Virus record (IMG/VR): IMGVR_UViG_3300020472_000139
Span: 1 to 27,705 of that record
Strand: one strand, 5' to 3'
From: a virus
Length of the DNA stretch: 27,705 nucleotides
Below the pieces are notes generated by a model. The model searched no databases. It was not told where the DNA came from and was given only the letters and a program-made list of their open reading frames with translations. Numbering within the stretch: the stretch's first letter is position 1; the number at the start of each line of letters is the position of its first letter. The position numbers and the translations under genes were made by a program. Below are positions 1 through 27,587 of this stretch, piece by piece.

Positions 1-674
1 GAAGGAACATGAGTTGCACTATCTGAAGCCATATTGTCTTCATCTTTTAATGCATTTGTTATTCTCGCATCAGCTCTCGCATTTGTAAAGTATAAATTAC
101 TTGATCCTTCACTAATATCATCTGTGTCTACACCCGTATAGTTTCTTGTATTTGTAACAATTTGATTTCCCATTAAACCGTGGGAAGAGCATTGATAGTG
201 TAATACTAAGGGTGTGGCGTCAGATACTACAATTTGTGTATATGCTCCGGATGACCCAGGAGTACCACTAGTTGTTACTCCAGTAGAGTAAGCAGTAGTT
301 TTTGCAGATTCATAGTAAAAAAGAAGTGGATGACCACTATTTGAACTATCTGCTTGGTCAAACTTATATGTATTTCCAGGAGCAAGTATAAGTGTTGGAG
401 AAAACGATCCATCTATCTTATACCCAGAACTTGAACCAGATCCATTATATCTATGAGTCGCATCTTTTGTAGCTACTGTGACTGTAAAAGTAACCGCAGA
501 ACTTTCATGACGAATTCCTCCGGCTTCTCCAACAGTAATAATATCTCCATTGGCATCACGGACAAAAATTCGTTGATCTTTCGCATTAAGTGCAATCTCG
601 CCAACAGCTATATCACTTGACGTAGGTTTAGAAAGAGCTGTTTCACTCTTTTTTACTTTAATTACTACTGGCAT
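1..674 (-). CDS. Tail fibre / virion surface protein with cupredoxin-like domain (3' end cut by window)
   Basis: The reading frame runs from ATG at 674 off the left edge, giving about 224 residues without a stop. AGGA lies 8 bases before the ATG. The N-terminus (VIKVKKSETALSKPTSSDI, then VGEIALNAKDQRIFVRD) resembles that of the upstream fibre gene, suggesting a shared virion-anchor module. Residues about 70-172 look like a cupredoxin-type beta sandwich: FDQADSSNSGHPLLFYY, then HYQCSSHGLMGNQ. His115, Cys162, His165 and Met168 sit where plastocyanin-type proteins place the four ligands of a type I copper site. Next comes LYFTNARADARI (194-205), a short motif I know from marine phage fibres. What is seen: the residues and their order. 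What is inferred: cupredoxin fold and metal binding. It is the last gene of the P3 unit in the window and probably a receptor-side or surface-exposed component. Confidence 0.8.
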   Translation of the reverse strand, partial: MPVVIKVKKSETALSKPTSSDIAVGEIALNAKDQRIFVRDANGDIITVGEAGGIRHESSAVTFTVTVATKDATHRYNGSGSSSGYKIDGSFSPTLILAPGNTYKFDQADSSNSGHPLLFYYESAKTTAYSTGVTTSGTPGSSGAYTQIVVSDATPLVLHYQCSSHGLMGNQIVTNTRNYTGVDTDDISEGSSNLYFTNARADARITNALKDEDNMASDSATHVP

Positions 675-1823: not shown

Positions 1824-2231
1824 CTAATAGGATCCTGCGTCTATTGTATCAGAATCGCCTGCAGCTGCGCCCACTATTATGGGAACCCACTGAAATGTGC
1901 CTGAACTTGTTTCTCTATAGACTTTGAATTGTTCATCGTCGGTATCATACCATGTGTCTCCCTCTGAGACAGTTGACCCCGTAGGGGCGGATGCACCTCT
2001 AAAATCTTGATCTGCTAATTGTTTGAGAGCAGTCTCTAGATCCGTTGCTGTTAATGTATTATATGGAGTAGTAACTACATTACTTGCGGCCATTGTGCCA
2101 GGAACAGTAGTTGAAATAGCTAAATGAGATAAAGTTAACTGAGTCTTATCATCAGTAATCTCGACAGTAATATCATCCCCTGTAGCGGTTATTTCAGTAA
2201 CATCTTCTGTTATTTCTATTGTTGTACTCAT
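1824..2231 (-). CDS. Small fibre-associated structural protein, function unknown
   Basis: A 135-residue protein whose ATG overlaps the stop of the upstream gene by 4 bases, indicating translational coupling. The first half is built of short Thr/Ile/Asp-rich beta strands (ITEDVTEITATGDDITVEI). The middle has an amphipathic segment, TATDLETALKQLADQDF. The second half contains GDTWYDTDDEQFKVYRE, a pattern seen in phage fibre and baseplate accessory proteins where a short strand pair displays W and Y. It ends DTIDAGSY, echoing the C-terminus of the next gene product. There is no membrane segment or enzymatic motif. Its place between the Ig-like protein and the long fibre suggests a linker, chaperone or small fibre subunit; this is inference. 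Confidence 0.65.
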   Translation of the reverse strand: MSTTIEITEDVTEITATGDDITVEITDDKTQLTLSHLAISTTVPGTMAASNVVTTPYNTLTATDLETALKQLADQDFRGASAPTGSTVSEGDTWYDTDDEQFKVYRETSSGTFQWVPIIVGAAAGDSDTIDAGSY

Positions 2232-2566
2232 CTTGTTACTTCAGGGGTTAGAGTGACATCTCCTTGTAAAAGTCGTTTAACTATAGCATCGCCAGAAGTA
2301 TAAATTTCTAAATCATATACGTATTGTCCTGCCGATATTCCTGAACTAGTTGCAGCAGCTAACGTCATTTTTAGTTTTCCTGCGGCAGCATCTGTTTTAG
2401 TCACTGTAAAGCTAGCAGAGGCTGAACTTGCAGTAACTGATGTACGCAGCTGTGCCCTACCTGAATAATTAGTCAGATTTAGAGCCGTTCCTGATTCCTT
2501 AACAACCAGGTCTAAAGCAAAGTCGGAACCTTGGTCAATTACTAAGTTATATGTTGCTGCGCTCAT
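2228..2566 (-). CDS. Small Ig-like / BppU N-terminal-like tail protein
   Basis: This 112-residue protein has the look of a single beta-sandwich domain: NLVIDQGSDFALDLVV, then LTNYSGRAQLRTSV, then GQYVYDLEIY and KRLLQGDVTLTPEVTR. The order 'IDQGSDF ... GRAQLR ... G.YVYDLE ... RLLQG.VTLTPEVT' matches small proteins of marine phages and resembles the N-terminal domain of BppU-type baseplate upper proteins. It is the first gene of the unit driven by promoter P3. GGAGA with a 6-base gap precedes the ATG. It probably decorates or links the tail tip and fibres; the exact role is not shown by the sequence. Confidence 0.7.
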   Translation of the reverse strand: MSAATYNLVIDQGSDFALDLVVKESGTALNLTNYSGRAQLRTSVTASSASASFTVTKTDAAAGKLKMTLAAATSSGISAGQYVYDLEIYTSGDAIVKRLLQGDVTLTPEVTR

Positions 2567-21348: not shown

Positions 21349-22779
21349 TTAGGAGTAAGGTAATCTTACAGAAGGCACATCTGTACCGGAAGCTGCATAC
21401 AGTTCGGCGAAGCCGAGAGACTGTGCTGCAACGATCACATTCTGCTGATCTTTCACGCTATACTCTGTTTCAATGCTAACGCCCTTCAATCGGGGTATAA
21501 CATAGTTGTCTACGTTAACAGCCATGGCTGCTGTTGTAGCAGGAGTACCACTTGAAGCTAGGTTGTTAGCTAACTGGTTAGTTGCGACTACGGGAGACCC
21601 GAAGACTGAACCAACTATACCGATACGCTTAGTAGCAAGGTCGTTTCCAACTTCGCTCACGTCGGTGAATCCAGAAGCATCAATTAGCTCGTAGTAAACG
21701 TCATTAGGAACAATGAACGCTACCTTTGCGGGATCCATGCCATACTTGCCCATATCCTTTCGCATTGCGAGAAGACCGGCAGGTGTAACTTCAGCGGAGC
21801 CAGAAGCATCAATGGTAGTTGAACCAGTTTGTGCATCTCCATAACCACCACCATCATCAGCACCGTTATCACCACATAGGCCTTTTGAAATTGTACCAGA
21901 AGAAGCACCAACAAGGATAGCCTTGTCAAGCGCAACTGCGTGTGCACGTGCTAGTGCGGAAGTAACAATAGGTAGCAATGTTACAACTACTTGCTCGTCG
22001 GTATCATTCGAGATATAAGTACCAGCGATCAATCTGTGAGCCTGTAAAATTACTTGGCTAACAGTATAGTTGTTGTCACCTGCGTCAGAGAGTTGGTTAG
22101 ATGAATCACCTACACCAGCTGCACTGAACGTTGCTGCTCCTGCGTCTGGGGCCAAAGGTAGTACAGTGGCACCGGAAGCAACTTGGATATCACGGAAAAG
22201 AGGTGCAACCTTCATTTCTTGACGTACTTCGTTCTCAAACTGAGTTGAAACGATTACATCGATACCTGCTGAGGTAGTAGATGTATAATCCACTCCAGCT
22301 TTTTGCATGACATTTTTTCCGAAAACGGTATCCATACCTTTTCCAGTAATTTTACCAAGAACAGTTGCTTCGAGAAGCTCTCGACCGTGTGCCTGAAGAT
22401 CGCTCTTCTGACGTCCAGAGAAGTCACGCTTACTGTTTTGAATTGCTTCAAGTTCAGCTTGCTTCTCTTCTAGGTCTTTCTTATACTTCTCCATAACTTC
22501 CGCAGCATTCACTTTCTCGTCTTCGAATTCTTTACGGATGTCTTCCATCAAGCGCTCTGCACCTGACTCTACGCCAGTTTTTATTGCAGACTTGACTTCT
22601 TCTTCCTGCTGGGCCTTAGCTTCTGCGTCAGCAGTAGCTTTCTCCTCAGCGTCTTTTTGCACAGCCTCTTCGGCTGCTTTTTGCTCGGCTTGCTTCATTG
22701 CGATTTTAGCAGCAGTTTCCTCAGCTACCTTTTTAGCAAAAGCTTCCAAGTCAACGGGTTGTTGTGTCTCTTCAGACAT
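21349..22779 (-). CDS. Nested in-frame start: scaffold plus major capsid protein
   Basis: An ATG at 22779 inside the fused gene would yield a 476-residue protein beginning MSEETQQPVDLEAFAKKV. It is preceded by AAGGAG with a 6-base gap, the best ribosome binding site in the head region. The start lies exactly between the protease domain and the coiled-coil scaffold, and the product has the layout of HK97 gp5 (scaffolding delta domain followed by capsid). This would let capsid be made in large excess over the protease fusion. It resembles the in-frame nesting of the scaffold gene in the lambda protease gene C. Use of this start is inferred. Confidence 0.7.
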   Translation of the reverse strand: MSEETQQPVDLEAFAKKVAEETAAKIAMKQAEQKAAEEAVQKDAEEKATADAEAKAQQEEEVKSAIKTGVESGAERLMEDIRKEFEDEKVNAAEVMEKYKKDLEEKQAELEAIQNSKRDFSGRQKSDLQAHGRELLEATVLGKITGKGMDTVFGKNVMQKAGVDYTSTTSAGIDVIVSTQFENEVRQEMKVAPLFRDIQVASGATVLPLAPDAGAATFSAAGVGDSSNQLSDAGDNNYTVSQVILQAHRLIAGTYISNDTDEQVVVTLLPIVTSALARAHAVALDKAILVGASSGTISKGLCGDNGADDGGGYGDAQTGSTTIDASGSAEVTPAGLLAMRKDMGKYGMDPAKVAFIVPNDVYYELIDASGFTDVSEVGNDLATKRIGIVGSVFGSPVVATNQLANNLASSGTPATTAAMAVNVDNYVIPRLKGVSIETEYSVKDQQNVIVAAQSLGFAELYAASGTDVPSVRLPYS

Positions 22780-23316
22780 CGTTATCTCCTTTTGGACTTG
22801 CGCCCCGTCACTATTAGTGAAAGTTTTCTTGAAATCTTCGTACTCTGCCATAGAGTCGAAGGACTTCGCCAGTGAAAAAGTAGCTGTTTGGTTACAAGGT
22901 ACTGAAACCACTGATACCTCAAACAACTCAGCGTCCTTTATTCTTAATCCGTCGGTTTCCTCTATATAATCAGCATCCTTGACTCGGAAACCAACAGAAA
23001 AGGCTCCAAGGACACCGTCTTTAACTAAGTCCACAACATCTTTGGCGGCTTTACTAATCTTAGCCTCCATCTCTAGTCCATTGTCAGTAGCTTTCAGTCC
23101 AATCGCTCTTCCAATAGGTCTATCATAGTTATGGTTAAAAAGAATTATGGGATTCTTTTCAAAATTTTTCAATCCACCTTTAGTCCATGCATCTGCTGAA
23201 ATAGAGTCGCCCGCGCGATCAAAATCAGTGGTGCTAGCCATACCTCGAATTTTGACACTACCGTCTTCATCAGTATGTGACTTAAAAGTAGAGGTCAGAT
23301 TAAATATCTTCTCCAT
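21349..23316 (-). CDS. Fused prohead protease - scaffold - major capsid protein (HK97 type)
   Basis: One uninterrupted frame of about 655 residues combines three parts. Numbering from the upstream TTG at 23343 (664 residues): S78-type prohead protease, about 11-160, with His71 (ILFNHNYDRPIGRA), Ser116 (LGAFSVGFRV) and Glu142 (LFEVSVVSVPCN) as candidate triad; an Ala/Glu/Lys-rich coiled-coil scaffold, about 190-310; and an HK97-fold capsid protein to the end (GIDVIVSTQFENEVRQEM, APLFRDIQVASGATVLPLAP). I prefer the ATG at 23316, which has GAGG 6 bases upstream; ATGs at 23331, 23328 and 23319 and the TTG at 23343 are less likely. It overlaps the upstream gene by 17 bases. The protease should cleave the scaffold during maturation. 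A separate capsid start lies within the ORF. Confidence 0.93.
   Translation of the reverse strand: MEKIFNLTSTFKSHTDEDGSVKIRGMASTTDFDRAGDSISADAWTKGGLKNFEKNPIILFNHNYDRPIGRAIGLKATDNGLEMEAKISKAAKDVVDLVKDGVLGAFSVGFRVKDADYIEETDGLRIKDAELFEVSVVSVPCNQTATFSLAKSFDSMAEYEDFKKTFTNSDGAQVQKEITMSEETQQPVDLEAFAKKVAEETAAKIAMKQAEQKAAEEAVQKDAEEKATADAEAKAQQEEEVKSAIKTGVESGAERLMEDIRKEFEDEKVNAAEVMEKYKKDLEEKQAELEAIQNSKRDFSGRQKSDLQAHGRELLEATVLGKITGKGMDTVFGKNVMQKAGVDYTSTTSAGIDVIVSTQFENEVRQEMKVAPLFRDIQVASGATVLPLAPDAGAATFSAAGVGDSSNQLSDAGDNNYTVSQVILQAHRLIAGTYISNDTDEQVVVTLLPIVTSALARAHAVALDKAILVGASSGTISKGLCGDNGADDGGGYGDAQTGSTTIDASGSAEVTPAGLLAMRKDMGKYGMDPAKVAFIVPNDVYYELIDASGFTDVSEVGNDLATKRIGIVGSVFGSPVVATNQLANNLASSGTPATTAAMAVNVDNYVIPRLKGVSIETEYSVKDQQNVIVAAQSLGFAELYAASGTDVPSVRLPYS
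22786..22791 (-). promoter_or_regulatory. Internal ribosome binding site for the nested capsid start
   Basis: AAGGAG on the minus strand, within AAAAGGAGATAACG, lies 6 bases before an in-frame ATG at 22779. It is stronger than the site of the long ORF, which argues that it is used. Confidence 0.75.
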
Positions 23317-23617
23317 CATCCCCCTCATCATCCGCTTTAACAACGGTCTTTGCCTTTTCCATCTTTGATTCTATGGTAGGCTTTTCTTCTTCGGGGACTT
23401 TATTAGAAAGTTCCCATAATTTGGGATGTTCTTTTTCTAGCATTTTTAACATTCTAGTCCAAGTCCCAAAAACTTTATCAACCTCTTTTACATCTAAAAA
23501 CTTAGGTCGATTAGGCAGCCTAGAATAGTCTTTTCGATCAGGAATCTTTCCTAATTCTGAAAAGAACATTCCGAGCTGGCCTGCAATTTTTACTCTTTTA
23601 GCGTGTGTTGCTGCCAT
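23300..23617 (-). CDS. Small protein between portal and protease, function unknown
   Basis: A 105-residue protein that starts in a TAATG overlap with the portal stop. The first half is helical and basic (MAATHAKRVKIAGQLGMFF, then GKIPDRKDYSRLPNRP). The region VKEVDKVFGTWTRMLKMLEK is an amphipathic helix, followed by EHPKLWEL. The C-terminus is strongly acidic (ADDEGDDGEDI). I do not recognise a family. The tight coupling to portal and capsid suggests a head-assembly accessory role such as a portal-binding or scaffold-like protein, but nothing in the sequence proves it. Confidence 0.75.
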   Translation of the reverse strand: MAATHAKRVKIAGQLGMFFSELGKIPDRKDYSRLPNRPKFLDVKEVDKVFGTWTRMLKMLEKEHPKLWELSNKVPEEEKPTIESKMEKAKTVVKADDEGDDGEDI

Positions 23618-26923: not shown

Positions 26924-27092
26924 ACGTTCCTCCTTCCATATAGCAATTACGTCTATACTTCTTATTCATGGCTTGCTCGGCCCAGTCTAATTCTTGAATT
27001 AACCGAGTGTACCACTGCTTATCGTAGTCTTTCGAAGCTTTGTCACGATCTTCTGCGAGTTGCTCCTTTCTCATTACGATGTAATTTACCAT
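26916..27092 (-). CDS. Small charged helical protein, unknown function
   Basis: A 58-residue protein. I prefer the ATG at 27092, which has AAGG 4 bases upstream and overlaps the preceding stop; the frame stays open upstream to a TTG at 27110. The sequence MVNYIVMRKEQLAEDRDK, then WYTRLIQELDWAEQAMNK is a likely amphipathic helix or coiled coil, ending in a Gly/Tyr-rich tail. No family is recognised. It is coupled to both neighbours by overlaps. Confidence 0.65.
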   Translation of the reverse strand: MVNYIVMRKEQLAEDRDKASKDYDKQWYTRLIQELDWAEQAMNKKYRRNCYMEGGTYE

Positions 27093-27376
27093 TTTACCTT
27101 GTTTGCCCAATATGCTGCACTCATTTTACCTTTTGCAATGTTCTTACGGTGGCGGGCTTTAAAAGACCGTCGCTTTGCTTTTATTCTTGCAGATTCGCCT
27201 GCTTTTGGTTTACCTGCAGTTTTAGCGCCTTGCTGTCCAAAACGAATAGTCTTTATTTTAGTGCCTACCTTGGCTACTACAATGTGGGACTTCTTCGCAT
27301 GACCAGGTGTGCGCTTTGGTTTGTTAAAACCTTTAACGCCTGCTCTTTTTAGTCTTGGATCTTTTTTTCGTGCCAT
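27086..27376 (-). CDS. Small basic protein of a conserved phage family (DUF6321-like)
   Basis: A 96-residue, very Lys/Arg-rich protein. Segments GFNKPKRTPGHAKKSHIVVA, IKTIRFGQQGAKTAGKPKAG, and FKARHRKNIAKGKMSAAYWA followed by NKVKW match a family I know from marine phages, where it is annotated as DUF6321 (from memory; should be confirmed). No biochemical role is established. The strong positive charge suggests nucleic acid or virion DNA binding. It overlaps the upstream gene by 44 bases and its stop overlaps the next start. Confidence 0.85.
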   Translation of the reverse strand: MARKKDPRLKRAGVKGFNKPKRTPGHAKKSHIVVAKVGTKIKTIRFGQQGAKTAGKPKAGESARIKAKRRSFKARHRKNIAKGKMSAAYWANKVKW

Positions 27377-27587
27377 TACTTTTTCCCAAAGCTATTCGTT
27401 GTTTGATTAACGATCTTGGGACAGTTTTGCCCGCTTTATATAGTCTTGCAATCCTTTTTATTACAGACGCAAGCTGAGTTCTCTTTGAGCCCTTTGTTCC
27501 AGATAAGTACTTCTTTGGAACTTTGCTCTTTTTATCTTTTGGTACGGCTTTTCGTTTTCGTGGCACGTTTCTTTCTCTTGATGTCAT
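27333..27587 (-). CDS. Small Lys/Arg-rich protein, possible DNA-binding virion or neck protein
   Basis: An 84-residue protein with Lys and Arg clustered at both ends (VPRKRKAVPKDKKSKVPKK and KKRSKTKKSRR). The centre, VPKKYLSGTKGSKRTQLAS, then VIKRIARLYKAGKTVPRSL, is a helical block that I also know from small proteins of large marine phages. The overlap with both neighbouring genes, its length and the ordered centre support a real gene. Function is unknown; nucleic acid binding is a reasonable guess. Confidence 0.72.
   Translation of the reverse strand: MTSRERNVPRKRKAVPKDKKSKVPKKYLSGTKGSKRTQLASVIKRIARLYKAGKTVPRSLIKQRIALGKSNGTKKRSKTKKSRR

Follow-up and report, generated by a model that had tools for sequence, protein, structure and literature searches.

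A predicted cupredoxin domain with a putative type-1-like copper site in the tail fibres of marine phages

A tail-fibre gene at one end of a 27,705-base record of an uncultured ocean virus (the window) encodes a domain, residues 57-180, for which structure modelling supports a cupredoxin fold. We propose that this domain, set between an N-terminal segment and a repetitive shaft, probably holds a type-1-like mononuclear copper site formed by His115, Cys162, His165 and an axial Met168, which would make it a stable module locked by copper. The domain is widespread and has no curated name; it links phage fibres with giant surface proteins of marine Flavobacteria and with CHRD proteins. Neither the fold nor the type of site is new, but in the open-access text searched there appears to be no description of them as a module that recurs in marine phage fibres.

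Results and discussion

The domain lies in a truncated tail-fibre gene

The tail-fibre frame runs on the minus strand from position 674 down to 3, begins with ATG and encodes 224 amino acids (table 1). The contig ends before any stop codon is reached, and the protein is therefore incomplete. The encoded part contains six histidines, three methionines and one cysteine, Cys162. When the codons were read from the sequence, all four proposed ligands stood exactly where a previous sequence-only reading had put them: H115 in GHPLLF, and C162, H165 and M168 in QCSSHGLMG. The same reading had called the protein a tail fibre, and the comparisons agreed. The family phrog_30742 (tail fiber) covers query residues 44-177 (E 1.2e-50), and homologues are annotated as tail fibre in phages Melnitz, Bellamy and P-SSM2. 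As expected of a phage tail fibre, the gene sits among tail genes, with the J gene and other fibre genes adjoining, and leads into a repetitive shaft. A near-identical complete homologue, L001 (635 residues, 98.7% identity over 223 aa), has an N-terminal segment, then the domain, then repeats such as SEGSSNLYFTNARADARI.

Table 1. Features of the fibre gene and its neighbours (window positions).
Feature	Position	Strand	Basis
Tail-fibre gene, 5' part (224 aa)	3..674	-	phrog_30742 tail fiber E 1.2e-50; L001/L002/L003 96-99% identical
N-terminal segment, residues 1-53, common to long-tail-fibre distal subunits	516..674	-	phrog_1699, phrog_35830 and phrog_19966 match residues 5-61
Predicted cupredoxin domain, residues 57-180	135..506	-	AlphaFold2 pLDDT 91.4, pTM 0.84; copper proteins matched by Foldseek and VIA; copies aligned in sets of 38 to 339
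His115, putative first copper ligand, just before model strand 64-67	330..332	-	Invariant in 204 non-redundant copies
Cys162, putative thiolate ligand, end of model strand 104-109	189..191	-	98.5% of 204 copies
His165, putative second histidine ligand	180..182	-	98.5% of 204 copies; lost only along with Cys162
Met168, putative axial ligand	171..173	-	99% of 204 copies; one natural Gln in L117
Start of fibre shaft, residues 181-224, repeat kind SEGSSNLYFTNARADARI	3..134	-	Repeats recur in L001 and Melnitz, both complete homologues
Adjacent upstream fibre-like gene, 371 aa	687..1802	-	phrog_15769 E 9e-25; weak baseplate/structural matches
Gene related to L-shaped tail fibre assembly proteins	2228..2566	-	phrog_3304 E 4e-20
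Central tail fibre J / host specificity protein, 1825 aa	2625..8102	-	phrog_31 E 1e-130

Structure prediction places the domain among copper proteins

We modelled residues 57-180 with AlphaFold2 from an alignment of 38 related sequences (alignment A1). The model has nine strands at a pLDDT of 91.4 and a pTM of 0.84, and forms the Greek-key beta-sandwich that characterizes the cupredoxin superfamily (7-8 strands). In cupredoxins, the first histidine lies just before a middle strand, and the cysteine, second histidine and methionine fall between the last two strands. His115 and Cys162 correspond to model residues 62 and 109, and His165 and Met168 are in the loop ahead of the last strand. The ligands thus follow the cupredoxin order and place, which supports the cupredoxin reading. 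By sequence position in the model, the residues match the ligand set and order of type 1 copper proteins (two histidines, a cysteine and an axial Met or Gln, with the cysteine, second histidine and Met in the loop before the last strand), and 200 of 204 copies of the domain keep all four.

All of the best 50 Foldseek matches in the PDB were copper proteins, rusticyanin being first (E 3.5e-4, probability 1.00), and this outcome bears out the fold that had been proposed from the sequence. The best structural matches comprise rusticyanin, the extra blue-copper domain of Hyphomicrobium nitrite reductase and laccases. With VIA, the top match was the N-terminal cupredoxin domain of the same nitrite reductase (2dv6; Z 9.1, 103 residues, rmsd 3.8). 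Since the Foldseek TM-scores are only about 0.5, at a sequence identity of about 15%, the match is one of fold and not of close relatives. The cellular form of the domain, modelled from a separate alignment of 25 sequences, reached a pLDDT of 91.5 and again matched copper proteins best, including pseudoazurin and amicyanin.

A similar fold was also seen in giant viruses related to Pithovirus and Marseillevirus (LCPAC/LCMAC), in three BFVD entries named 'beta-sandwich proteins' (A0A481Z7Q7, A0A481Z6J5 and A0A481YWX9).

The putative ligands are retained and lost in concert

Conservation was assessed in 204 copies at below 90% identity among the matches listed; most of these had been gathered by scan patterns free of any ligand residue, and two later scans did include some. 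The His-Cys-His-Met set is intact in 200/204. Three copies (L072/L313, L195 and the first copy of L117) have lost the cysteine and the second histidine jointly, yet still keep the first histidine and core residues such as G140. Loss of the cysteine alone or of the second histidine alone was seen in none of the 204. If the losses were independent, their coincidence in all three cases would have a probability of about 7e-7, a figure that ignores kinship and neighbourhood. A single copy, the second in L117, has Gln instead of Met; Gln is a known axial ligand, as in stellacyanin. Free loss of ligands among homologues had been named beforehand as refuting the copper proposal, and the loss turned out not to be free. 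When sequences of equal composition were shuffled 20,000 times, H-x(25-60)-C-x(2-4)-H-x(2-4)-M arose in 28 cases, and its conservation over 200 diverged copies shows that the four residues are no chance pattern. On the alignments, purifying selection on a ligand set that is lost in concert is supported.

The same copies allow a different explanation to be weighed, namely that the domain is an ordinary beta-sandwich decoration with a cupredoxin fold, whose four residues serve only for packing or hold another metal such as zinc. Four non-ligand residues (G140, G169, N112 and F105) are conserved about as strongly as the ligands, so conservation alone is weaker evidence and could be structural. 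Phage fibres bear many Ig-like decorations, and their abundance also speaks for such a role. However, the joint loss of Cys and His from copies that keep their core residues fits a type 1 copper site, as does the change of Met to Gln, which is not a random replacement, and remote cellular relatives keep the tetrad. We consider this explanation quite improbable.

An inter-chain disulfide as the reason for Cys162 is argued against by its co-loss with His165. The protein on the Prochlorococcus single-cell contig L117 (L117:3393-9035) has the axial Met to Gln change in residues 1502-1632 and another copy that has lost Cys, His and Met. Elsewhere in the domain, a further histidine, His74 (window 453-455), lies in a loop that follows the first strand; where the phage form has it, its conservation is about 95%.

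Relation to known copper proteins and phage systems

Single-query searches of Pfam, NCBIfam and PDB sequences returned no match covering the query, and PF00127 (Copper-bind) had no hit at E<=1 in either the query or the 38 relatives. Weak Pfam matches to SpaA_3, DUF3439 and NrdI were taken as chance. With PF25489 the query has no hit, 7 of the 38 members match weakly, and one multi-copy phage protein (L052) passes the cut-off at full length (29.6 versus 27 bits). Two places in Bacteroidetes were found with PF25489 and independently with the A2 profile; the cellular relatives found by both profiles are CHRD proteins, whereas the query domain belongs to a fibre. Two of the three Bacteroidetes CHRD proteins L342, L343 and L344 link the domain to PF25489 (At5g54830-like), which suggests that PF25489 is a cupredoxin family. 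In these three proteins, CHRD domains are paired with a distant version of the cupredoxin domain.

The fibre domain shares with rusticyanin, pseudoazurin, amicyanin and plastocyanin its predicted fold, the order His...Cys-x2-His-x2-Met and a PG[DN]T motif before the first ligand. It differs from these blue copper proteins in having its first ligand in GHP, where theirs is in PHN, in being embedded in a fibre, where they are free soluble carriers, and in its lack of a significant sequence-family match. The site had been described as plastocyanin-like, which holds for the type I ligand set but not for the loop: plastocyanin has C-x2-H-x4-M, and the C-x2-H-x2-M found here is the amicyanin loop length. 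This length is compatible with a copper site, because a solved azurin (3fsa) carries CAAHAAM in its metal-binding loop. When a global profile alignment against cyanobacterial plastocyanins was forced, all four ligands and the PG[DN]T motif superposed, with a local P of only 0.006. An origin from phage petE is not supported, the profile similarity to plastocyanins being too weak.

Cyanophage petE encodes plastocyanin as an auxiliary metabolic gene (PMC2984593). Both petE and the fibre domain, as predicted, would be phage-encoded cupredoxins, but the petE product is homologous to an electron carrier of the host, whereas the fibre domain is part of the virion. Metal sites on phage fibres have a precedent in the HxH sites that bind iron in T4 gp37 (seven Fe ions) and in Alteromonas phage R22Y (PMC11705849). 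The fibre domain resembles these in its predicted metal site on a fibre; theirs hold octahedral Fe in a trimeric fibre, whereas here one chain would provide a putative His2CysMet site within a globular domain. The PHROG tail family that matches the domain, phrog_30742, is not annotated as a copper protein or cupredoxin in the collection consulted. No paper in the open-access text searched joined cupredoxin, plastocyanin-like or 'type 1 copper' with tail fibre. The one paper there that combines cyanophage, copper-binding and tail fiber (PMC8115048) concerns nirK, not fibres, and the Melnitz paper gives only low-confidence structure predictions for the tail-assembly region (PMC9004378).

The domain recurs in marine phages and Bacteroidetes

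The best named relatives are tail fibres: that of OM43 phage Melnitz (75.6% over 205 aa) and those of Synechococcus phage Bellamy, Pelagibacter phage Mosig and Prochlorococcus phages P-SSM2 and P-TIM68. Tail genes surround the relatives in all three neighbourhoods inspected (Melnitz, Bellamy and P-SSM2). Among phages, the domain sits in fibre and tail proteins of cyanophages, pelagiphages and OM43 phages, and the domain is abundant, since each of two virus-contig scans gave at least 600 matches. The GHPL...C..H..M pattern had been expected in other marine phage and bacterial proteins, and the scans found it there. The domain is a modular and repeated unit, with up to three copies per protein. 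Of 204 complete frames, 85 have its start inside the first 80 residues, 80 have it between residues 80 and 300, and 39 have it further on.

In marine Flavobacteria, the domain occurs near C-type lectin, DUF7507 and DUF11 repeats in proteins of giant size, one open frame reaching 9,219 aa. The flavobacterial giant surface proteins and the CHRD proteins retain the ligand tetrad in these foreign contexts, and distant secreted Bacteroidetes proteins with CHRD repeats keep GHP...C..H..M. Flavobacterial loci with the domain include L341 (G001:C1:1357031-1357363), L102, L105, L107 and L111.

A proposed copper-locked fibre module

From the model and the alignments we infer that the fibre domain probably binds copper, which would be the metal held by His115, Cys162, His165 and Met168. 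The site could instead hold another soft metal or zinc. Bacterial cytoplasm contains almost no free copper, which is why we place copper loading after lysis: the domain would fold empty in the copper-poor host cytoplasm and would be filled from the lysate or from seawater after release. The bound ion would then lock the Cys/His/Met loop to the His115 strand, and the locked domain may act as a stable, surface-exposed adhesion or spacer module by which the fibre is stiffened or tuned.

The main role is unlikely to be electron transfer, since no redox partner was seen. The ligand set is that of electron-transfer cupredoxins, and the related PF25489 is named for a plant protein, At5g54830, which carries cytochrome b561, DOMON and DM13 redox domains. 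Both points would suit a module that, at the cell surface, switches between Cu(I) and Cu(II), whether as a cue to the environment or in reaction with host electron-transfer proteins. Heme, flavin and other redox domains were not matched in the fibre proteins, however, and we hold such switching to be very unlikely.

The loaded domain might also serve as a copper Trojan horse, recognized by host surface proteins for copper or metal uptake. The domain is found on fibres of phages with open-ocean hosts, which suits this idea. Its position does not: the domain is near the N-terminus here and starts within the first 80 aa in the 85 of 204 frames counted above, which speaks against a receptor-binding tip. 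In trimeric fibres, the N-terminus is normally the virion-attached end. There is, moreover, no known receptor, and the hosts are unrelated. We regard this use of copper as unlikely, even with the Ferrojan/Trojan horse hypothesis and the precedent of iron-bearing HxH sites in T4 gp37 and in marine phages (PMC11705849).

Hundreds of related ocean-virus sequences have retained the four residues, so the fibres of many marine viruses probably bear a metal ion, which is most likely copper. Virions that bind copper would be carriers of protein-bound copper in seawater and would present a redox-active metal where the virus makes contact with the cell, in parallel to what has been proposed for iron in tail fibres. 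A broader picture, in which the fibres of marine phages of many families bear several type 1 copper centres in each virion, virions form a pool of copper-binding ligands in seawater, and copper occupancy or redox state controls adsorption, seems to us rather doubtful. The copper reading is directly testable with the cultured phages Melnitz, Bellamy and P-SSM2.

Other frames in the window

Megablast of the whole window against phage records found no close relative. By eye, a 664-aa frame on the minus strand (window 21349-23343) apparently joins a prohead protease to a major capsid protein. Two small overlapping frames, also on the minus strand (window 27086-27587), encode very basic products rich in Lys and Arg.
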